A stretch of 64,000 nt of DNA from a virus, in the IMG/VR virus record IMGVR_UViG_3300043607_000009, positions 1-64,000 of that record. The stretch is one strand, 5' to 3'. Shown piece by piece: positions 1,954 through 63,714 of this stretch (its first letter is position 1; each line of letters begins with the position of its first letter). The notes under the pieces are model-generated. The model searched no databases. It was not told the origin of the DNA and saw only the letters and a program-made list of their open reading frames with translations. The translations under genes and the position numbers were made by a program.

Positions 1954-4900
1954 GTGGGGAGCCTCAACCCGCACTGCCAGAAGTGCCCGCTACACGAGAC
2001 TAGCGACATCGTATGCCTTGCTGGCGAAGGTCGGCGCGGCGCCGAGGTCATGTTCGTTGGCGAAGCGCCCGGTGCGGAAGAAGAACGCGAAGAGCGACCG
2101 TTCGTCGGGCCGTCCGGCCGGCTGCTCCGTGATCAACTCAAACGCGCCGGCATCAAAGACGTGTTCATCACGAACACGGTCCGTTGCGTCGTGGGATCAA
2201 CGGCGGTAAGTTTTCCATCGCCCCCCACGGTAGGGTACAAACGCTATTACCAGGGCCTTCTCTTGACGATCAAGACGGCCTCGGGCAACGAGCTGGCCGT
2301 CACACCGAATCACCCGATACTCACGGCGCGTGGATGGGTTCGCGCTGAGGAGTTGCGCGGTCGAGATGACTACGTTCACTGCTTCGGGCGTAACTCTGGT
2401 ACAACGATTCAGCCACAAGTAGACGACCGCCCACTTCTCGCGGAGCAAGTATTCAGTACGCTTGCGCTTAGAAGCAGCTCGTGCCGGGTTGTTGGTCATC
2501 AAATGGATTTCCACGGCGACGGAACCGATCGCGAAGTCGAGATTGTAAGGGCCGACAGCGCATTGTTCTCGGAACACGACTTTTCTCTTGCGCAGTTCAG
2601 AAGCGAACCAACGATCAGTAGCTCCTTGTTTGCCCCTCGTCTGTTCGGCCGTTATTGCGCTAGTCTGCGCTCGTTTTTTGATCGCCTCAGGGCTCCACAG
2701 CCGTCGATTAGCATAGGCAGCTTGGCGCGCTGGCTCCGAGAGGGCCACACGTTCTTCAGTCGTGAGCTTGCTCCAATATTTTTTCAGAGTGCGCCCTGTA
2801 TCTGCGACCAAAGCAGCATCATGGTAGCTGCGGGCGTTGTAGCCGGCAGCCTTCAATCTAGCGGCAACAGTTCCATCACTAACCCCGAGAGCAACGGCGA
2901 TCTGGCAGAAAGATTCTCCGCGCTTAAAGCGCCCGACCAAATCATCGAGATCCAATCGCAGTTTTGGGCGGGCCATGTCTACAACTTCTCAACGCCGGGG
3001 GGGTGGTACATCTCGAACGGTATTATAACGCACAACTGCCGGCCACCGAGCAACCGACAACCGACTGCGACCGAGATCTCCGCGTGTCGTGGCTACCTCG
3101 CGGATGAGATCAAGCGTGTCAAGCCCAAGTATGTTGTGGCGCTTGGCGCAGTAGCCGCGAAGACGCTCTTCGTTGGCAAGTCCAAGGTCACGCAACACCA
3201 CGGCGCCTTCGTGGAGCCCACTGACAAGCACCCCTACCGCGGCTACGTCGCTTACCATCCTGCCTTCACGCTGCGCGACCCTAGCAAGTTGCCGGCGTTC
3301 ACTCAGGATCTAAAGCGATTGGCCCGTGCGGTCCACGGTGAAGAGCGAGCTCCCGAGGCGCCGTGGTCCCTACTGCGGCGCGGCAACCTGCGGAAGTTTC
3401 TGCGCGAGTTCATCGAAGCCCCGGAGTTCTCGTTCGACCTCGAGACCTCGGGCTACTTCATGCACGGGCCAGGCGGCTACATCAACGCGATGTCGATCGA
3501 CCTCCCGCACCGCACGTGGGTCGTGCCGTGCATGGACTACGATCCAATCAACAAGCGGCACAAGCACACTCCGTGGCGCCGCGGGAACGCCTTCCTCGAG
3601 CTCGTGAAGCTGTTGGTCAAGATCCAACGTGAGACTGCAAAGCGCTGCGTTGGCCACAACGGCAAGTTCGACAACCTCTGGCTCCGCCGTCTGACTGGCT
3701 TCTGGTTCAAGCTCACGTTCGACACGATGCTTGCGAGTCACACGCTGGACGAGAATCGCGAGCACGATCTCAAAACGCTCGCGCGCACCATCCTCGACGC
3801 GCCCGAGTACGACCTCACGCCAAAAGAGAAGAAGGGAATAGTTGTACCGCGCAAGCTCTACCGCTACGGCGCTTACGACGCCTATTACACGCGCAAGCTC
3901 AAGGAGATCTTCTACCGCGAGCTCCAAGACGAACCGGAGCTCCACCGGCTGTATCACAAGCTGATCATCCGCGTCGCGCGCTCGATGGAGAACCTCGAGA
4001 TGGTCGGCAAGACCGTGAATCTCGAGAAGTGGGACGCCACCACGATCGACGTGCAGTCCGAAGTCATCTTGCTCGAGATCGAGCTCAACAAGATGGTAGG
4101 AAAGACCATTAACTGGAATTCGCCGCCGCAGATCGGCCGGCTCTTGTTCGATGAGCTCGGACTCGAGGTCACGCAGTGGACCGACGGAGGGGCTCCGTCC
4201 ACGAGCGAAGAAGCGCTCTTCGATCTGCGCGACGAACACCCCGTCGTGAACAAGCTGCTCGAGTACCGCGAGCGCACCAAGTTCTTGGGCACATACCTGC
4301 ACGGTCTGCGCGAGTATATGGTGGGGCAAACGCTCTACATCCCCTACAAGATCCACGGCACGGTCGGCGGCCGCTACAGTTCGCCAATTCATTCGATTCC
4401 ACGCGACGGCACCATTCGCAACCTCGTCGAAGCACCGGACGGTTGGGATCTCTTCGTGGCCGACATCTCACAGGCGGAGCTCCGCTTCGCTGCACACTTG
4501 TCCGGCGATCTCGAGATGCGTCGCTGCTTCAAGAACAATATCGACATCCACTGGCGCACGCTCATGTACACGCTCGGCCAAGGCTACATCGGCACCGAAG
4601 AGTACGTGGATAACGTGTGGGGCACGGTGAAAGCTCTCGGCAAGCGTGTCAACTCTATCGGCGATGCGTGCGAGGTCTTGCTGCTCGCCGGCCACGATCG
4701 CTGCACCGAGATTTGGAAGGGCTGGAAGGAAGGTCGCTACCGCGCCAAGGCGCTGAACTTTGGGTTTTGCATCGCAGAAGGGCAACGTGTACTGACTCAC
4801 GTTGGTCTAGTACCAATCGAACAAGTGCAGGACTGGCACCTTGTATGGGATGGCGTAGAGTGGGTATCCCATAAAGGAGTTCAATTTAATGGCTACCAAG

Positions 4901-6102
4901 AAGTCATCGAATATCAAGGGCTCAAAGCAACCCCAGAACACGAAGTCTGGACGATGGGGGGGCAGAGGCTTCCCCTTTGGAGAGCGGCATCCGAAGGCCA
5001 TAGACTTGAGAAAACGGGAGCGGGACTTACAGCGTTTCCCTCTAGGGACACTAGTCGTTTTAGTGGGAACGATTCGTCGCGTCGAGAGATCGCGGTTAGT
5101 GATCGACGTTACTTGCACAGCATGCGAGAAACGACAGACGCTTCTCGTAGACAATTTATGGGCGAAGAAGACAACCAACTGTCGCTGTCAAAGAGCCAAG
5201 AAATACTTCGATCCTCGATCCGAAACTCTTGGAATGCGCTACGACACCATGATTCAGCGCTGCGAACGCGATACGCACGTTTCATCGAATCGCTACAAAG
5301 GGCGCGGAATCCAAGTGCTCTTCAAATCGCGAGAGGAGTTTATCCGTTGGGCGTTGAAGAAGTACCCCAACAGCGATTTCAAAGAATTGGTTTTCGATCG
5401 ACGGAACAACGACGGGAATTACTCCAAGGGCAATCTTCGCCTGACAACCTACAGCGTCAACAATCGAAACAGATTAAGGTCTACGATCTAATCGACGCGG
5501 GGCCACGTCACCGTTTCACAGTAGAAGACTGTCTCGTACACAACTGCTACGGGATGTTTGAAGACAAGTTCATCGAGCTTGCCAAGACCGACTACGAGTG
5601 GGAGCCCTCATGGGACGAAGCGCACTCGATGCGCCAAGGCTTCTTCGATCTCTACAGCGGACTCCCCAAGTGGCACGACAAAGAGAAGAAGATCGTGCGC
5701 AATAACGGCTTCGCACGGATCTTGTCGGGGCGTCGGCGCCGGCTGCCGGCGATCTACTCCAAGGAGAAGTGGATACGCGCAGAAGCCGAGCGCCAAGCGG
5801 TCAACATCCGCGTGCAGGGATTCATCGGCGACTACAAGTCCATGGCGCTCGTCGAAGCGGACGATCGGCTGAATCCGCACGAAGCGAAGCTCGTCGGCGA
5901 ACACCACGACGCGCTCCTCGGGATCGTGCGCAAGGACTGCCACGATGTGGTGCTGCCAGTGGTGCGCCAGATCATGAAGGCCCCCGCGCTGCTCCGCGCG
6001 TTCAACATCAAGCTCGACATCCCCATGAATTCGGACATCGAGCTCGGACGATGGGGCGCAGGCGTCAAATATCAAGACCCAGAACAAAGGAGAGCTGCGT
6101 GA
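1954..6102 (+). CDS. Uracil-DNA glycosylase / 3'-5' exonuclease / family A DNA polymerase with two inteins
   Basis: The 1,382-residue precursor splices to about 839 residues. Residues 1-77 and 362-460 form a family 4-like uracil-DNA glycosylase (CQKCPLH cysteines, GEAPGAEEE, PFVGPSGRLL, TNTVR joined to CRPPSNRQPT, HPAF). Residues ~490-620 are a DnaQ-like exonuclease (FDLET, GHNGKFDN). The polymerase domain has motif A (DISQAELR, ~836), motif B (RAKALNFGF, split by intein 2) and motif C (EHHDAL, ~1317). Inteins occupy residues 78-361 and 939-1197. It is presumably the replicative polymerase, and the fused glycosylase suggests that uracil in DNA is recognised during replication. The start is GTG 1954. 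The gene ends in a GTGA overlap with the next one. Confidence 0.92.
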   Translation: MGSLNPHCQKCPLHETSDIVCLAGEGRRGAEVMFVGEAPGAEEEREERPFVGPSGRLLRDQLKRAGIKDVFITNTVRCVVGSTAVSFPSPPTVGYKRYYQGLLLTIKTASGNELAVTPNHPILTARGWVRAEELRGRDDYVHCFGRNSGTTIQPQVDDRPLLAEQVFSTLALRSSSCRVVGHQMDFHGDGTDREVEIVRADSALFSEHDFSLAQFRSEPTISSSLFAPRLFGRYCASLRSFFDRLRAPQPSISIGSLARWLREGHTFFSRELAPIFFQSAPCICDQSSIMVAAGVVAGSLQSSGNSSITNPESNGDLAERFSALKAPDQIIEIQSQFWAGHVYNFSTPGGWYISNGIITHNCRPPSNRQPTATEISACRGYLADEIKRVKPKYVVALGAVAAKTLFVGKSKVTQHHGAFVEPTDKHPYRGYVAYHPAFTLRDPSKLPAFTQDLKRLARAVHGEERAPEAPWSLLRRGNLRKFLREFIEAPEFSFDLETSGYFMHGPGGYINAMSIDLPHRTWVVPCMDYDPINKRHKHTPWRRGNAFLELVKLLVKIQRETAKRCVGHNGKFDNLWLRRLTGFWFKLTFDTMLASHTLDENREHDLKTLARTILDAPEYDLTPKEKKGIVVPRKLYRYGAYDAYYTRKLKEIFYRELQDEPELHRLYHKLIIRVARSMENLEMVGKTVNLEKWDATTIDVQSEVILLEIELNKMVGKTINWNSPPQIGRLLFDELGLEVTQWTDGGAPSTSEEALFDLRDEHPVVNKLLEYRERTKFLGTYLHGLREYMVGQTLYIPYKIHGTVGGRYSSPIHSIPRDGTIRNLVEAPDGWDLFVADISQAELRFAAHLSGDLEMRRCFKNNIDIHWRTLMYTLGQGYIGTEEYVDNVWGTVKALGKRVNSIGDACEVLLLAGHDRCTEIWKGWKEGRYRAKALNFGFCIAEGQRVLTHVGLVPIEQVQDWHLVWDGVEWVSHKGVQFNGYQEVIEYQGLKATPEHEVWTMGGQRLPLWRAASEGHRLEKTGAGLTAFPSRDTSRFSGNDSSRREIAVSDRRYLHSMRETTDASRRQFMGEEDNQLSLSKSQEILRSSIRNSWNALRHHDSALRTRYARFIESLQRARNPSALQIARGVYPLGVEEVPQQRFQRIGFRSTEQRRELLQGQSSPDNLQRQQSKQIKVYDLIDAGPRHRFTVEDCLVHNCYGMFEDKFIELAKTDYEWEPSWDEAHSMRQGFFDLYSGLPKWHDKEKKIVRNNGFARILSGRRRRLPAIYSKEKWIRAEAERQAVNIRVQGFIGDYKSMALVEADDRLNPHEAKLVGEHHDALLGIVRKDCHDVVLPVVRQIMKAPALLRAFNIKLDIPMNSDIELGRWGAGVKYQDPEQRRAA
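2185..3036 (+). other. Intein 1, in the glycosylase domain, with an antisense endonuclease gene
   Basis: The 284-residue insertion interrupts the glycosylase motif exactly between TNTVR and CRPPSNR. Block A is CVVGSTAV, block B GNELAVTPNHPILTARGWV, block F GHVYNFST and block G NGIITHN followed by Cys, as in standard Cys1/Asn/Cys+1 inteins. Between the splicing halves (about 2400-2915) the intein frame encodes no LAGLIDADG or HNH motif; instead, the complementary strand there encodes an endonuclease-like protein (2197-2976). The host frame remains open throughout. The codon boundaries of the two strands coincide. Confidence 0.9.
2197..2976 (-). CDS. EDxHD/Vsr-like homing endonuclease nested antisense in intein 1
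   Basis: This 259-residue protein reads opposite to the polymerase. Residues ~8-45 form a helix-turn-helix (DDLVGRFKRGESFCQIAVAL, GVSDGTVAARLKAAG). Residues ~115-190 resemble the PD-(D/E)XK fold of Vsr-like EDxHD homing endonucleases (FREQCAVGPYNLDFAI, VAVEIH, a basic helix, then WAVVYLWLNR). That family was described as free-standing genes lying between the halves of split-intein genes. Here the gene lies wholly within one intein, and its last ~60 codons are complementary to intein blocks A and B, so the true functional end may be earlier. The ribosome binding site is weak (GAGAAG upstream of the ATG at 2976). The protein is likely real; its activity is untested. Confidence 0.75.
   Translation of the reverse strand: MARPKLRLDLDDLVGRFKRGESFCQIAVALGVSDGTVAARLKAAGYNARSYHDAALVADTGRTLKKYWSKLTTEERVALSEPARQAAYANRRLWSPEAIKKRAQTSAITAEQTRGKQGATDRWFASELRKRKVVFREQCAVGPYNLDFAIGSVAVEIHLMTNNPARAASKRKRTEYLLREKWAVVYLWLNRCTRVTPEAVNVVISTAQLLSANPSTRREYRVIRCDGQLVARGRLDRQEKALVIAFVPYRGGRWKTYRR
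4768..5544 (+). other. Intein 2, in polymerase motif B, with an out-of-frame endonuclease gene
   Basis: The 259-residue intein begins at Cys (CIAEGQRVLT, block A) directly after NFGF of polymerase motif B. Block B is LKATPEHEVWTMGG, block F IKVYDLIDAGPRHRF and block G EDCLVHN followed by Cys (CYGM). Motif B is essential, so the polymerase needs splicing to be active. The middle (~4960-5470) has no endonuclease motif in the intein frame, but the +1 frame of the same strand encodes an HNH-type endonuclease (4889-5491) with its own ribosome binding site. The intein frame has no stop through this stretch. Confidence 0.9.
4889..5491 (+). CDS. HNH-type homing endonuclease nested in the +1 frame of intein 2
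   Basis: The 200-residue protein starts at ATG 4889 behind a strong site, AAGGAG (4874-4879), 9 nt upstream, so it can be translated independently of the polymerase. It has a Cys-rich region (CTACEKR, NCRCQR) followed by the conserved core of a phage HNH-like family (RYDTMIQRCERD, YKGRGIQVLFKSREEFIRW, FDRRNNDGNYSKGNLRL). The same core occurs at 42064-42582 and 60069-60758. It lies entirely inside the intein DNA and shares it in another frame. It presumably mobilises the intein. Confidence 0.82.
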   Translation: MATKKSSNIKGSKQPQNTKSGRWGGRGFPFGERHPKAIDLRKRERDLQRFPLGTLVVLVGTIRRVERSRLVIDVTCTACEKRQTLLVDNLWAKKTTNCRCQRAKKYFDPRSETLGMRYDTMIQRCERDTHVSSNRYKGRGIQVLFKSREEFIRWALKKYPNSDFKELVFDRRNNDGNYSKGNLRLTTYSVNNRNRLRSTI

Positions 6103-41035: not shown

Positions 41036-42067
41036 TTACGGCTCGAACTGCGCGAGCTGATCGAACGGCACGCGGAATCCCGCGGCGTTATTGTGACCGC
41101 CACCACCATACTCTGCCGCGATCATGCCCACGTCGGCCCCGCCCTCGCGTGAGCGCAGAGAGAAGTTGCGGCCGTCCGGAGAGTCGTAGAAGCAGCCGGC
41201 AAACGCATGCGAGTAGCGCAACGGATTGATGTCGGAGTCCACGGTGTTCGGCAGCGGATGCCCCTTCACATTGCGCTCGCAGAGCATGTGCCCCGCGTCC
41301 GACGACAAGGTGTATGGCAAGTTCGCAATCGGCACGACCATGAACCCTAGATCCGCAGCCGTAGGACCATCGAGCCACGGAGCTCGGAATTTCATTGGCC
41401 GAGTGACGACGCGCGCGAGCTCGTCGATGTCCTTGAAGTGCTTGCGCTCGATCGCCTCACCGTTCGCCGCGAACACGTCGCGGTACGGAGCGCTCGCTTC
41501 GAACTCTCGTACGAGATCGCTCCATACCGAGAAGTTGTATGGGAACGAGAACAAGTTTGCTTGAATCTCGCGAGTGTACGGCAGCTTGAAGCGCCAAAGA
41601 TCTCGATCCTCGACGTGATTGAGCAACATCGGCCGCGCGACGCCGGGATTGAAGAAATCCCACGCGAGGCCGGCGCCCGAGCGCTCCAAGTCGTAGATCG
41701 TGTAGATGCCGCCTGTCGAGTCTTCGTCGAGCGTATCCAAGAACGTTTCCCATGACACGTCCTTTGGGTTCGGCGCGGCGAAGATCCGATCCGCTTTGTC
41801 GGGTGCCAAGTCATCACGCGCCGTCTTGTGGTGATCGAGCACAAGCACGATGTTGCGGTTCAACGCGATCGACTTCATCACGTGGCGCTTGTACGCAAAG
41901 TCCACGAAGATGACGATCGAGTCGTAGATCTCGGGCGGCGGCCGCTGATACACGCTGGCATGGAACTCGGGACGACCGCCCTTCCGGTCCTTGAGTGCTT
42001 GGTTCACGACCCATGCGGCGCCGAAGCCATCCGCGCACGGATAATGAAAAATACAATGCACTTTCAT
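41036..42067 (-). CDS. DHH-family phosphoesterase
   Basis: ATG 42067 follows AAGGAAAAA; an open frame upstream lies in the HNH gene. The 343-residue protein has DHH motifs: FHYPCADGFGAAW, IVIFVDFAY, LVLDHHKTA (DHH), HVEDRDLWRF, and a DHHA1-like end AEYGGGGHNNAAGF. DHH/DHHA1 proteins cleave short oligonucleotides or cyclic dinucleotides; a phage copy could recycle nanoRNA or disarm cyclic-nucleotide defence. The choice between them is not visible here. Confidence 0.85.
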   Translation of the reverse strand: MKVHCIFHYPCADGFGAAWVVNQALKDRKGGRPEFHASVYQRPPPEIYDSIVIFVDFAYKRHVMKSIALNRNIVLVLDHHKTARDDLAPDKADRIFAAPNPKDVSWETFLDTLDEDSTGGIYTIYDLERSGAGLAWDFFNPGVARPMLLNHVEDRDLWRFKLPYTREIQANLFSFPYNFSVWSDLVREFEASAPYRDVFAANGEAIERKHFKDIDELARVVTRPMKFRAPWLDGPTAADLGFMVVPIANLPYTLSSDAGHMLCERNVKGHPLPNTVDSDINPLRYSHAFAGCFYDSPDGRNFSLRSREGGADVGMIAAEYGGGGHNNAAGFRVPFDQLAQFEP

Positions 42068-42582
42068 TTGTTTTTCCTTTCTTGTTTGTAACCTTTGCGA
42101 TTCTGAAGAAGATGTTCTACTTGTTGTTCTCGAGTCGCCCATCTACAGTTCGTCGGCGTGTAGTTTCCACGACGATTGGGATACCGATCCAACTCGTGCT
42201 CCTCTGAAGGGCATTCTCCCATATCCTTCAAAAAAGTTTCGTAACTGTTCCAGCGGGGGCAGATACGAACGTTCTTGTAGTGTTTGTAGTCACGTCGTTT
42301 GGTGTTCTTAGACAGACATCGTGCTCGCATAGAGCGCCAAATGCGATAACTCCGAGGAAACTTACCCTTGCGTGCGGCTCCATGAGATCGTGCAGGTCGA
42401 TTTGAAAAAGCGCATCGACGGCATTGGGTCGAAGCGCCATTGCGCAGATGAGTAGCTGACACAACATGCTTCTGCCCACAAGCACATCGACAAAGCCATT
42501 GAGTAAAGGGACTAGTTCTAACTAGCTTGATGACTATCCACTGGCTGAACGATTGCCCTCTAAGATTCTGGAAAGTAGGCAT
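42064..42582 (-). CDS. HNH-like homing endonuclease
   Basis: Residues 1-60 (LRGQSFSQWIVIKLV, LCRCACGQKHVVSATHLRNG, CRRC) are the zinc-binding module and residues ~85-155 the catalytic core (YRIWRSMRARCLSKNTKRRD, YKHYKNVRICPRW, LDRYPNRRGNYTPTNCRWAT) of a phage family also seen inside intein 2 and in the chimera at 60069. The stop overlaps the ATG of the DHH gene. It is AT-rich and inserted between the portal and DHH genes. Confidence 0.8.
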   Translation of the reverse strand: MPTFQNLRGQSFSQWIVIKLVRTSPFTQWLCRCACGQKHVVSATHLRNGASTQCRRCAFSNRPARSHGAARKGKFPRSYRIWRSMRARCLSKNTKRRDYKHYKNVRICPRWNSYETFLKDMGECPSEEHELDRYPNRRGNYTPTNCRWATREQQVEHLLQNRKGYKQERKNK

Positions 42583-60068: not shown

Positions 60069-60758
60069 ATGAACGACGACATCAGCACGTTTCAGCTCAT
60101 GGAGCTGTTCCCGGACGAGATCGACGCGCGCGCGTACCTCGAAAAACGCCGATGGGGTGACGCGCCGTGGTGCCCGCGGTGCAGCGACGAACGGATCACG
60201 ACGCGCGGCGGAGATCGTGTCGGCTATTACCGCTGCGGCGCGTGCTCGCTCGAATTCACCGTGCGCAGCGGGACGCTGATGGACCGCAGCCATGTGCCGT
60301 TGGCCGGCTGGCTCGCGGCTCTGATGTATCGCGATCAGTCGATCTCTGACATGGCGCGCGCGCTCGACGTCACTCGCAACTCTGCTGCCAGGCTGCGCGA
60401 TGTGCTGACTGCCGCTCCCACGGCGCTCGACGCGGCCGTTGGCAAACTCGTCGAGACCGTGGCGACGCCGCGCGGGACGCCTGCCCCGCCGAAGCGCTAC
60501 CGTGTAATGCGCGATCCGGTGCTCAGCGTTTGGAGCGGCATGCTTTCGCGCTGTACGAATCCGCGCAGCTCCTCGTATCGCAACTACGGCGGCAGGGGGA
60601 TCACCGTCTGTAAGCGCTGGCGAGTGTTTGCGCATTTCCGCAGCGATATGAGTCCGCGACCGCCGGGTACGACGCTCGATCGCTACCCGAACAACGACGG
60701 TGACTACGAGCCGGGCAACTGCCGCTGGATCAGCGGTGGAAGTACCGCGGCGTGGTGA
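60069..60758 (+). CDS. IS1595-type zinc ribbon/HTH fused to an HNH endonuclease core
   Basis: Residues 1-130 match the amino half of an IS1595 transposase: ISTFQLMELFPDEIDARAYL, CPRC...CGAC zinc ribbon, TVRSGTLMDRSHVPLAGWLA, a helix-turn-helix. The same elements occur in the transposase at 62181. Instead of the DDE domain, residues ~150-225 are a phage HNH-like core (SVWSGMLSRCTNPRSSSYRN, YGGRGITVCKRW, LDRYPNNDGDYEPGNCRWIS). A tail in the next frame (60731-60847; KYRGVVTTPNGPLFVFEE) may be the remnant of a former carboxyl end. It may be a new targeting nuclease or an endonuclease that invaded a domesticated transposase. Confidence 0.7.
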   Translation: MNDDISTFQLMELFPDEIDARAYLEKRRWGDAPWCPRCSDERITTRGGDRVGYYRCGACSLEFTVRSGTLMDRSHVPLAGWLAALMYRDQSISDMARALDVTRNSAARLRDVLTAAPTALDAAVGKLVETVATPRGTPAPPKRYRVMRDPVLSVWSGMLSRCTNPRSSSYRNYGGRGITVCKRWRVFAHFRSDMSPRPPGTTLDRYPNNDGDYEPGNCRWISGGSTAAW

Positions 60759-60850
60759 CGACTCCGAACGGTCCGCTCTTTGTCTTCGAAGAGCCGGCCG
60801 ACGCGCAGTCGACGCTCCTCGTTCCCAGCCGCACCGCGCGAGCGTGACAC

Positions 60851-61111
60851 ATGCCGATGGCACACAACGGCCTCGCGAAGCTCGTTGAAGAGAGCGGCGA
60901 GCTCTCGCAAGTCGCGGGCAAGCTCCTTCAGTATCCGCACGGCGAGCACCCTGACGGCCAAGGCCCGTTGCTCCACCGCCTCGAGCTCGAGATGGGTGAC
61001 GTTCTCGCGGCGCTTCGCTTCGTCGCGCAGAAGCACCAGATCGACTCCTCGCGCGTGAACTTCTACGCCGCGTCGAAACTCGAACTATTCAACAAGTGGG
61101 ACAAAGAATGA
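60851..61111 (+). CDS. MazG-like nucleotide pyrophosphohydrolase
   Basis: The 86-residue protein has the MazG metal motif: KLVEESGELSQV (ExxE) and LELEMGDVLAALRFV (ExxD), with the four-helix pattern of MazG/HisE proteins. It would hydrolyse (d)NTPs or alarmones such as ppGpp. Its stop overlaps the ATG of the ThyX remnant. ATG 60857 is an alternative start. Confidence 0.75.
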   Translation: MPMAHNGLAKLVEESGELSQVAGKLLQYPHGEHPDGQGPLLHRLELEMGDVLAALRFVAQKHQIDSSRVNFYAASKLELFNKWDKE

Positions 61112-61522: not shown

Positions 61523-61649
61523 TGTTGCGCGTTGCGCTCTCCGTTCAAGACTTCGATACGACGGGCGCGACGCTCTCGGCATGTGGCCTCTATCGCTTCG
61601 CACTGTGGCGCCAAGTGCAGCACCCCGGCATCGGGGACGGCCATCGAAG
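61522..61649 (+). pseudogene. DUF1643 gene, 5' part, split by the IS element
   Basis: ATG 61522 encodes LRVALSVQDFDTTGATLSAC, GLYRFALWRQVQHPGIGDGH. Joining this to 63288 after removing the IS and one copy of CATCGAAG restores an unbroken frame (...GDGHRSMLFLMNNPSTADA). DUF1643 proteins are uncharacterised and common in phages and mobile DNA. The interruption makes the gene non-functional. Confidence 0.85.
61642..61649. repeat. Target site duplication, left copy
   Basis: CATCGAAG directly precedes the left inverted repeat and recurs at 63280-63287 directly after the right one. Eight bases is the size made by IS1595-family elements. Confidence 0.9.
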
Positions 61650-61673
61650 GGGAATTATATACATGAGTCCCTT
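61650..61673. repeat. IS left inverted repeat
   Basis: 24 bp, exactly complementary to 63256-63279. It begins GGGAATTATATACATGAG. Confidence 0.95.
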
Positions 61674-61700
61674 GACACGGCCGAGGGAGTCAAGTACATT
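61672..61700 (+). promoter_or_regulatory. Promoter at the left end of the IS
   Basis: TTGACA (61672-61677), 17-bp spacer, TACATT (61695-61700). CTTGAC/GTCAAG form a dyad across the -35 and spacer. It overlaps the inner edge of the inverted repeat, so transposase binding to the end could repress it. Confidence 0.7.
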
Positions 61701-61734
61701 GGAACCGTCGAAACCACCAACCCCGGAGACTCCA

Positions 61735-61926
61735 ATGAACAAAGTAGGCTTCACGATCTACGCCGCAACGCTCAAGGCTGATGGCATCCCCGACGTGCGG
61801 GCCACCGTCCCGGACGAGACGAGCGCGCGTCGCCTTGGCCGCCTACTGCTGGCTGACGGGTTCACGGACGTTCGGGTGCATACCTGGAACGATCGCGCCG
61901 AGGAATACAGTGAGCTGGTGCTGTGA
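61735..61926 (+). CDS. IS passenger protein, 63 aa
   Basis: CGGAG precedes ATG 61735. The protein (KVGFTIYAATLKADGIPDVR, SARRLGRLLLADGFTDVRV) is a small alpha/beta fold. Its stop overlaps the next start (TGATG). The function is unknown. Confidence 0.65.
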   Translation: MNKVGFTIYAATLKADGIPDVRATVPDETSARRLGRLLLADGFTDVRVHTWNDRAEEYSELVL

Positions 61927-62177
61927 TGCCGCGTCTTAGCTTCCACCAACTGCACACGCTTGTGCACTATGCCAAGTTCAACCATGGCCGTGGCGCCGAG
62001 CTTCGCAAAAGTCGTGGCACCACGATGTTCGCGCTGCGTGAAAAAGGGCTGATTGAGTTCGTCGATGCGCGCGGTACTTTCGTCCCAACCGCGCGCGGAG
62101 AGAAGGCGTTGGATGAGCACGGGTATGAAGCAAACGGCGAATGGCGCGGCTCCAATCAGCCGCGGAAGTACGGGTGA
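61926..62177 (+). CDS. IS passenger, winged-helix-like protein, 83 aa
   Basis: ATG 61926 overlaps the previous TGA. The pattern HQLHTLVHYAKFNHGRG, TTMFALREKGLIEFVDARG, FVPTARGEKALDEHG fits a small winged helix with a T..G...L wing. It may regulate the element. Confidence 0.65.
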   Translation: MPRLSFHQLHTLVHYAKFNHGRGAELRKSRGTTMFALREKGLIEFVDARGTFVPTARGEKALDEHGYEANGEWRGSNQPRKYG

Positions 62178-62180
62178 GCT

Positions 62181-63050
62181 ATGGAAGATCACGTCACCAT
62201 CAGCACGTTCCAACTGTTCCAGTTGTTCCCCGACCAGGAGTCCGCGCGCGACTACCTCGAAGCGCGCTTGTGGCCGAACGGCGCAACGTGCCCGGTCTGC
62301 GCCAAGGGCGACCGGATCACGACGCGCAAGGCTGTCGGCTTCTACCGTTGCAATCGCTGCAAAGAGGACTTCACCGTTCGCACTGGCACGATCTTCGAGC
62401 GGTCCAAGGTGCCGTTGCACAAGTGGCTCTATGCCATGTACCTGCTCGTGACGGCTCGCAAAGGCATCAGCAGCCTGCAACTGTCGAAGCAGATCGGCAT
62501 CACGCAGAAGTCCGCGTGGTTCGTGCTGCACCGGCTGCGCGAGGCGGTCGGCGGTGAAATGGACAAGCTGCGCGGCATCGTCGAGATCGACGAGACGTAC
62601 TTCGGCGGCAAGGAGGCGAACAAGCACAGCGGAAAAAAACTTCGGGCCGGGCGCGGCGCAGTCGGTAAGGCTGCGGTGCTCGGCCTGCGGGAGCGCGGTG
62701 GCCGCACTCGCGCCCTGCCGATCGAGAGCACCGACCGCGACACGCTGCACCGGGCGATCCACGCCAACGTCGAAGTCGGCTCGGTCATTCACAGCGACGA
62801 GGCTACGGCCTACGACGGCATCGGCGGGCTGTTCTTCGGTCACAGCATCGAGAGCGTTTTTGCCGTCATGAAGCGCGGCGTGCTCGGCGTCTACCACCAC
62901 ACGAGCAAGAAGCACCTTGGCCGATACGTCGATGAGTTCGCGTTCCGGCTGAACGAAGGCAACGTCAAGCAGCACACGCTGGCGCGCCTGGATGCGCTGG
63001 TAGACGCGACGGTCGGCAAGCGCCTCACCTACGCGGGGTTGATCTCGTGA
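62181..63050 (+). CDS. IS1595 family transposase, incomplete DDE domain
   Basis: The 289-residue protein has a zinc ribbon (CPVC...CNRC), a helix-turn-helix (LQLSKQIGITQKSAWFVLHR), and the ISXO2-like domain (VEIDETYFGGKE, HSDEATAYDG, IESVFAVMKRGVLGVYHHTS, YVDEFAFRLNEG). Family members have about 20 residues (NHS...GEYV...HTN) between the second Asp block and IES; here GHS runs straight into IES, so the third catalytic region is shortened. The gap is in frame. Activity is doubtful. Confidence 0.85.
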   Translation: MEDHVTISTFQLFQLFPDQESARDYLEARLWPNGATCPVCAKGDRITTRKAVGFYRCNRCKEDFTVRTGTIFERSKVPLHKWLYAMYLLVTARKGISSLQLSKQIGITQKSAWFVLHRLREAVGGEMDKLRGIVEIDETYFGGKEANKHSGKKLRAGRGAVGKAAVLGLRERGGRTRALPIESTDRDTLHRAIHANVEVGSVIHSDEATAYDGIGGLFFGHSIESVFAVMKRGVLGVYHHTSKKHLGRYVDEFAFRLNEGNVKQHTLARLDALVDATVGKRLTYAGLIS

Positions 63051-63250
63051 GAAGCCGAGACGAGATCGACTACGACAACCACGTTTCGGTTCCGAAGCAG
63101 TGCGGACCAGGCTGCGAGTTCTGCAAGCACGAACGCGAACAGGCGAAGGCACTCGACGCCATCGCAGACGTGGTGCTGCGCTACAAGCCGAAGCCAAAGA
63201 GCGAGGCCGGGAAGGCCCGCAAGCGGAAAGCCCGGAAGGCGCGCCGCTAA
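63047..63250 (+). CDS. IS passenger, basic Cys-containing protein, 67 aa
   Basis: GTG 63047 overlaps the transposase stop. The protein has CGPGCEFC, a helix (EREQAKALDAIADVVLRYKP) and a Lys/Arg-rich tail. It ends six bases before the right inverted repeat. Confidence 0.65.
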   Translation: MRSRDEIDYDNHVSVPKQCGPGCEFCKHEREQAKALDAIADVVLRYKPKPKSEAGKARKRKARKARR

Positions 63251-63255
63251 TGGCT

Positions 63256-63279
63256 AAGGGACTCATGTATATAATTCCC
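63256..63279. repeat. IS right inverted repeat
   Basis: 24 bp, the exact inverse complement of 61650-61673. Confidence 0.95.
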
Positions 63280-63714
63280 CATCGAAGCATGCTGTTCTTG
63301 ATGAACAACCCGAGCACCGCGGACGCGCGCGAAGATGACTCCACTATTCGGCGCGTGAAGGGCTTCGCGTGGGAGTGGGGCTTCCACCGCGTGTACGTCG
63401 GCAACACCAATCCGACGCGCGGCACCGATCCCAAAGCCGTGAAGCTCGCCGAGGAACCGTGGTTGTTCGAGAACGATCGCCAGCTACGCAGGCTCGCTGC
63501 GCGCGTGGAGACCATCATCGCTGCATGGGGCAACGATGCCGATCGAGAGCTCGCGAAGCGTGCATACCTCGTGGTTCGAGACATCAAGCCCGTGCACGTG
63601 CTCGGGCTCACCAAGCTCGGCGCTCCGAAGCATCCGCTATACTTAGCCGCCAACACCAAGCCGAAGGTATGGATACCCAAAGAGGAGCAACTTAGAAATG
63701 CCCGTTCCGTCTGA
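63280..63714 (+). pseudogene. DUF1643 gene, 3' part, with right target duplication
   Basis: CATCGAAG (63280-63287) is the right target duplication. The frame then continues MLFLMNNPSTADAREDDSTI, RRVKGFAWEWGFHRVYVGN, the signature of DUF1643, and ends at TGA 63712-63714. Read with 61522-61649 it rebuilds the whole gene. Confidence 0.85.

Follow-up and report, generated by a model that had tools for sequence, protein, structure and literature searches.

A chimeric gene and its surroundings

The window, by which is meant the whole stretch of 64,000 nucleotides that was analysed, represents nearly the entire IMG/VR virus record of 64,682 bases and carries an open reading frame (ORF) at 60069–60758 in which modules of a transposase and of a nuclease are joined. 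The ORF, its parts, and the related features of the window are as follows:

60069..60758, + strand: chimeric ORF, 229 aa and open, with an IS1595-type zinc ribbon and helix-turn-helix (HTH) joined to a 3'-truncated HNH core
60069..60311, + strand: N-terminal helices and zinc ribbon (C35, C38, C56, C59), to W81 (Pfam PF12760, E 3.4e-8; AlphaFold2 model)
60312..60416, + strand: HTH bundle, shorter and more diverged than transposase HTHs (alignments; model helices 78-86, 92-99, 103-115)
60417..60497, + strand: linker of no recognisable homology (AAPTALDAAVGKLVETVATPRGTPAPP...; no library match, pLDDT low from residue 122)
60498..60728, + strand: HNH core with the family-conserved W, RC, YGGRGI, C, W, LDR, and PxNCRW (PHROG 8790/374/3377, E ~1e-30; alignment)
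60729..60758, + strand: aberrant end ISGGSTAAW and stop, in place of the near-invariant ATxxEQxxN helix of the ββα-metal site (alignment of relatives)
60729..60849, + strand: tail coding in another frame (DQRWKYRGVVTTPNGPLFVFEEPADAQSTLLVPSRTARA, then stop), probably what is left of a former gene's 3' end, or else a small ORF beginning at GTG 60752
61650..63279, + strand: intact IS1595-type insertion sequence (IS) of 1,630 bp with terminal repeats GGGAATTATATACATGAGTC, outside the chimera
62181..63050, + strand: IS1595 transposase, 289 aa (zinc ribbon and DDE), 1.4 kb beyond the chimera
42064..42582, − strand: resident HNH endonuclease of the same family, with the final helix motif present (NCRWATREQQ)

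The two domains of the chimera were aligned separately, as a mixed alignment of the whole protein paired the domain sets wrongly. Residues 15–60 correspond to Zn_ribbon_IS1595 (Pfam; E 3.4e-8, 33.8 bits against a cut-off of 25.4), and residues 1–~115 can be aligned over their whole length with the N-terminal part of the IS1595 transposase encoded in the window (47% identity), the two proteins sharing an ISTFQL…LFPD start motif, four zinc-binding cysteines, and FTVRxGT…VPLxxWL. Structure prediction, proposed as a check by the initial annotation, yields a ribbon and an HTH bundle for this front end (AlphaFold2, pLDDT ~79–92 at residues 11–110). Residues 144–222 match PHROG families of HNH endonucleases (E ~1e-30), no DDE domain was found in the chimera (no match to PF12762 or NF033547), and a search of a defence-system library gave no match. 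Codon usage in both modules fits that of the phage, and the coding signal is positive along the ORF and coherent across the junction. The chimera is a genuine and unusual fusion of two modules, far beyond what chance would produce. The fusion of IS1595 zinc ribbon and HTH with an HNH core described in the initial annotation is therefore present, both modules being there and the DDE domain not, though its HTH is shortened and diverged and its HNH part lacks the last helix.

The full IS1595 transposase that had also been reported nearby, comprising a zinc ribbon and a DDE domain, belongs to the intact element at 61650–63279, whose ends are identical 20-base repeats and which is bordered by an 8-bp duplication, CATCGAAG, at 61642-61649 and 63280-63287. 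This element interrupts a DUF1643 gene, whose joined flanks form one frame with a full-length PF07799 match (E 6.9e-30). The chimera has neither flanking terminal inverted repeats nor an 8-bp target duplication; no long inverted repeat was found around it, and within the window the terminal repeats of the clade occur only at the ends of the neighbouring IS.

Relatives of the chimera's front end were found in more than 80 IMG/VR loci, and 11 of the fetched loci, including two that come from the window, have the exact IS end sequence. Several members of this phage IS clade (L096, L118, L119, L121, and L140) have lost the DDE domain, including a short element, L096, still bounded by both terminal repeats. 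The clade occurs on many phage contigs (L090-L173), where the transposase is often followed by a small ORF rich in lysine (…ADVVLxYRPKxK…KRKK). L096 and L121 have lost the DDE domain through an internal deletion, and their zinc ribbon and HTH (Zn-HTH) read into a tail of this lysine-rich type. The possibility that the chimera is a recent duplicate of the neighbouring transposase was rejected, as the latter groups with L113 and L163 (92% identical to L113); the chimera has a long branch of its own, placed in or close to that IS clade, and no DNA stretch longer than 15 bases is common to it and the rest of the window. Judged from these sequences, the clade of the neighbouring IS is phage-borne and repeatedly loses its DDE domain, and the neighbouring element is not the recent source of the chimera.

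The truncated nuclease core and the change of frame

Relatives of the HNH part share the pattern W…RC.NP…YGGRGI.VC.RW…LDR…G.Y.P.NCRW, followed by ATxxEQxxN. The conserved core, including the second strand (LDR … PxNCRW), is present in the chimera, and nearly all conserved residues outside the final helix are intact, the D204/R205 and N217 positions being kept. The chimera ends in NCRWISGGSTAAW and a stop codon, with a threonine (T226) at the ninth position after the conserved asparagine (+9), no helix, and the stop three residues on, at 229. Among 95 relatives from the fetched loci, the +9 position is occupied by Q in 89, N in five, and R in one, and even the shortest HNH relatives, which extend two residues beyond the end of the chimera, retain the motif. 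The final HNH helix, with its +9 metal-ligand residue, is absent from the chimera, and no EQxxN was found in the other two frames past its core.

The family profile places the +9 position opposite N96 of I-HmuI, a weak match (hmmsearch, 1u3e; E 0.43) in which D74-H75 and N87 are in register. The catalytic residues of I-HmuI are D74, H75, and N96 (PMC12724721). In the HNH enzyme of phage GVE2, H118 is the counterpart of this residue, likewise at +9 (from N109) and on the last helix, and an H118A substitution abolishes 83% of nicking (PMC5304195). The position of the final helix was taken from L005, a complete relative modelled with AlphaFold2 (mean pLDDT 89), and related to the chimera by alignment; the L005 model has strands at 126–129 and 142–145, followed by a helix at 147–153. 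The structure that best matches residues 67–155 of L005 is that of PacI, an HNH restriction enzyme (3ldy; Z 5.8, rmsd 2.4, 73 residues), a modest score, yet above those of unrelated entries, which matched another part of the model. Foldseek searches against the PDB returned nothing significant for either model, which is not a sign of a new fold. As the helix and the +9 metal-ligand position are missing from the chimera, its nuclease is probably inactive. Since the HNH core is nearly intact elsewhere, the ORF remains open, and codon usage in both modules fits the phage, any decay must be of very recent date unless the protein is retained for some purpose.

The initial annotation had noted an out-of-frame tail, and the codon signal indeed exits the chimera frame at ~60729 and proceeds in a different one as far as the stop codon at 60847–60849, although the stretches of frame signal are short and the switch is indicative only. 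One base separates this stop from a MazG-like gene that starts at 60851. Phage records gave no significant homologue for the tail (60729–60849). A possible 32-codon ORF with a GTG start (60752-60849, + strand) overlaps the stop of the chimera (GTGGTGA) and ends just before the MazG-like gene; no relatives of it were found. No promoter-like site was found near the chimera, though phage promoters may differ.

Searches for related fusions and neighbouring modules

The domain pair was sought in other genomes, as the initial annotation had proposed, and no second in-frame fusion was found. No place covering 80% of the chimeric protein was recovered from 50,697 phage records or 72,556 plasmids, and a whole-protein scan of ~85,000 prokaryote genomes returned six loci, none of which has both modules. 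The Zn-HTH part alone gave only two matches among phage records, a stand-alone Zn-HTH gene (L088) and a transposase with a DDE domain (L089); exact 8-residue patterns from this part revealed no close relatives in IMG/VR. Related zinc-module ORFs from the fetched loci, mostly IMG/VR, carry a DDE domain in the same ORF in 81 of 91 cases and lack it in the other 10, and 0/91 carry an HNH domain. Spacing patterns from the zinc to the HNH module had no match in IMG/VR (TACCG), in ~85,000 genomes (GGCAC), or with GGTAC; the GGCAC pattern in IMG/VR matched once, on the L067 contig. Because these patterns fix certain codons and a spacing range, and thus sample rather than exclude, and because searches may omit records nearly identical to the window, what emerges for the collections searched is the rarity of the full-length fusion and not its uniqueness.

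A related phage with the locus as it stood before the event was likewise not found. Relatives of the primase-like gene, sought as a guide to a syntenic phage, were absent, no close relative of the phage was found, and around the MazG-like gene neither Stenotrophomonas phage Bhz59 nor Pseudomonas phage PaMx25 was seen to share gene order with the site. Longer alignments of HNH relatives that reached into the HTH of the chimera (e.g. L029 and L176) were rejected, as the HTH homology was unconvincing.

The nearest parallel to the chimera's arrangement in these searches, L067 (IMGVR_UViG_3300032163_000886), carries a Zn-HTH and an HNH module that match those of the chimera in family and order and are spaced similarly. 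Unlike in the chimera, the two are encoded by overlapping ORFs in different frames, with the end of the Zn-HTH ORF (4968–5486) overlapping the start of a complete HNH gene (5317–5856; NCVWIPFAEQAKN), and the Zn-HTH is ~28% identical to that of the chimera. This overlap might reflect co-expression or a product of frameshifting, or else a Zn-HTH gene with a homing gene at its end. At another locus, L122:2332-2511 (− strand), an IS of the clade has its left end directly against part of an HNH endonuclease gene (NYRHYGGRGITMCER), which suggests insertion of the IS into a homing-type nuclease gene; as this fragment belongs to the HNH family of the chimera, genes of the two kinds do come into contact in phage genomes. 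The window itself holds, besides the resident HNH gene on the minus strand, a further and more diverged gene of this kind at 4889–5491 (+ strand).

Origin of the chimera and comparison with known systems

The explanation that we favour, to which we give slightly better than an even chance, is that the chimera is a composite created by illegitimate recombination in a phage genome, consisting of a Zn-HTH without DDE and a truncated HNH core, which may bind DNA and should not cut it. An IS1595-type phage transposase that had already lost its DDE domain would have supplied the zinc ribbon and HTH; this module would have been joined in frame, via the linker, to an HNH core from a phage endonuclease of the homing type, replacing the nuclease's own N-terminal module; and the 3' end of the nuclease would have been cut in the same or a later event, such that the last active-site helix was lost and the gene ran into another frame. 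The order of these events is a reconstruction, and by the same reasoning the Zn-HTH part would still bind DNA while the chimera would not cut it. The chimera is most likely a recent relic in which nuclease function is not maintained, and gene shuffling most likely gave rise to it as a one-off and not as a new targeting enzyme. Of the two origins put forward in the initial annotation, the union of a homing core with a transposase relic is a better fit than a new targeting nuclease, which the findings do not support. The relic is consistent with the DDE-less state also seen in clade members and with the frame break that follows the core, though no sign of a clean homing insertion was seen, neither a restored flanking reading frame nor an empty allele being demonstrable. 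The exchange of domains that the initial annotation had envisaged is supported by the position of the IS1595 Zn-HTH, which stands where many HNH relatives carry their own N-terminal module.

An unlikely though credible alternative is that the protein is a useful DNA-binder with a dead nuclease, its Zn-HTH acting on a site in the phage or at an IS end as a repressor or competitor and the HNH remnant adding only DNA affinity. The zinc ligands and HTH fold are retained with good model confidence, the coding signal is positive along the chimeric ORF, a stand-alone Zn-HTH gene exists in L088, and a precedent in kind exists, as the DNA-binding part of homing endonucleases gave rise to CapR, a satellite repressor (PMC10448857). 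However, no orthologue shows selection, and no promoter-like site was found nearby, although the promoters of the phage may be of another type. A broader view, which the chimera and the L067 pair bring to mind, would have IS1595 transposases and HNH homing endonucleases exchange their DNA-binding modules in phages and thereby yield new site-specific binders or nucleases; we consider it distinctly unlikely.

Insertion of a homing gene into a stand-alone Zn-HTH gene, with later fusion, differs from the favoured recombination only in route, the out-of-frame tail then being a remnant of the flanking gene. The overlap in L067 (4968–5486 and 5317–5856) is the arrangement expected soon after such an insertion, but this route is improbable given that the tail shows no significant resemblance to the phage genes searched, no empty allele was found, and both parts of the chimera lie in a single frame. 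It is quite improbable that the chimera works as a homing or targeting nuclease whose DNA-binding module has been exchanged: a binding part and a nuclease at opposite ends is the usual order in homing endonucleases (PMC10448857) and the D204/R205 and N217 positions are intact, yet the final catalytic helix is missing together with the +9 residue, which is Q or N in 94 of 95 relatives, and no recurrent in-frame fusion was found. An assembly or sequencing artefact, conceivable in that the chimera is known from one metagenomic contig, is highly improbable, for the coding signal is coherent through the junction and local copies cannot have been mis-joined, as the chimera has at most 15 consecutive bases in common with the rest of the window and its protein identity is 47–50% to the local transposase and 40% to the local HNH gene.

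In homing endonucleases, a single nuclease core is found with DNA-binding modules of various kinds. A module taken from a transposase would add to the sources of such modules and would link two kinds of selfish DNA. As the nuclease is probably dead, the present case illustrates how such fusions arise and fail, not a working enzyme; should the side-by-side ORFs of L067 prove to be co-expressed, the idea of module exchange would become directly testable.

Among known systems, the PacI/I-HmuI-like phage HNH endonucleases (PHROG 374, 3377, and 8790) have the same core pattern as the chimera. Many relatives of the chimera's HNH part possess their own N-terminal module (GxxFGxLxV…CxCG), which in the chimera is swapped for the IS1595 Zn-HTH, and the ATxxEQxxN helix of these endonucleases is missing. 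With IS1595-family transposases (ISXO2-like; PF12760 and PF12762) the chimera shares N-terminal helices, zinc ribbon, and HTH, as well as the motif of the phage-borne clade, ISTFQL…FPD…CPxC…YRCxxC…FTVRxGT; unlike them, it lacks the DDE domain, its gene is not flanked by terminal inverted repeats, and its HTH is shortened. The DDE-less members of that clade (L096, L118, L119, L121, and L140) resemble the chimera in retaining the transposase front end after loss of the catalytic domain but are without an HNH match, and where their tail can be read, in L096 and L121, it resembles the small ORF found downstream in the IS itself.
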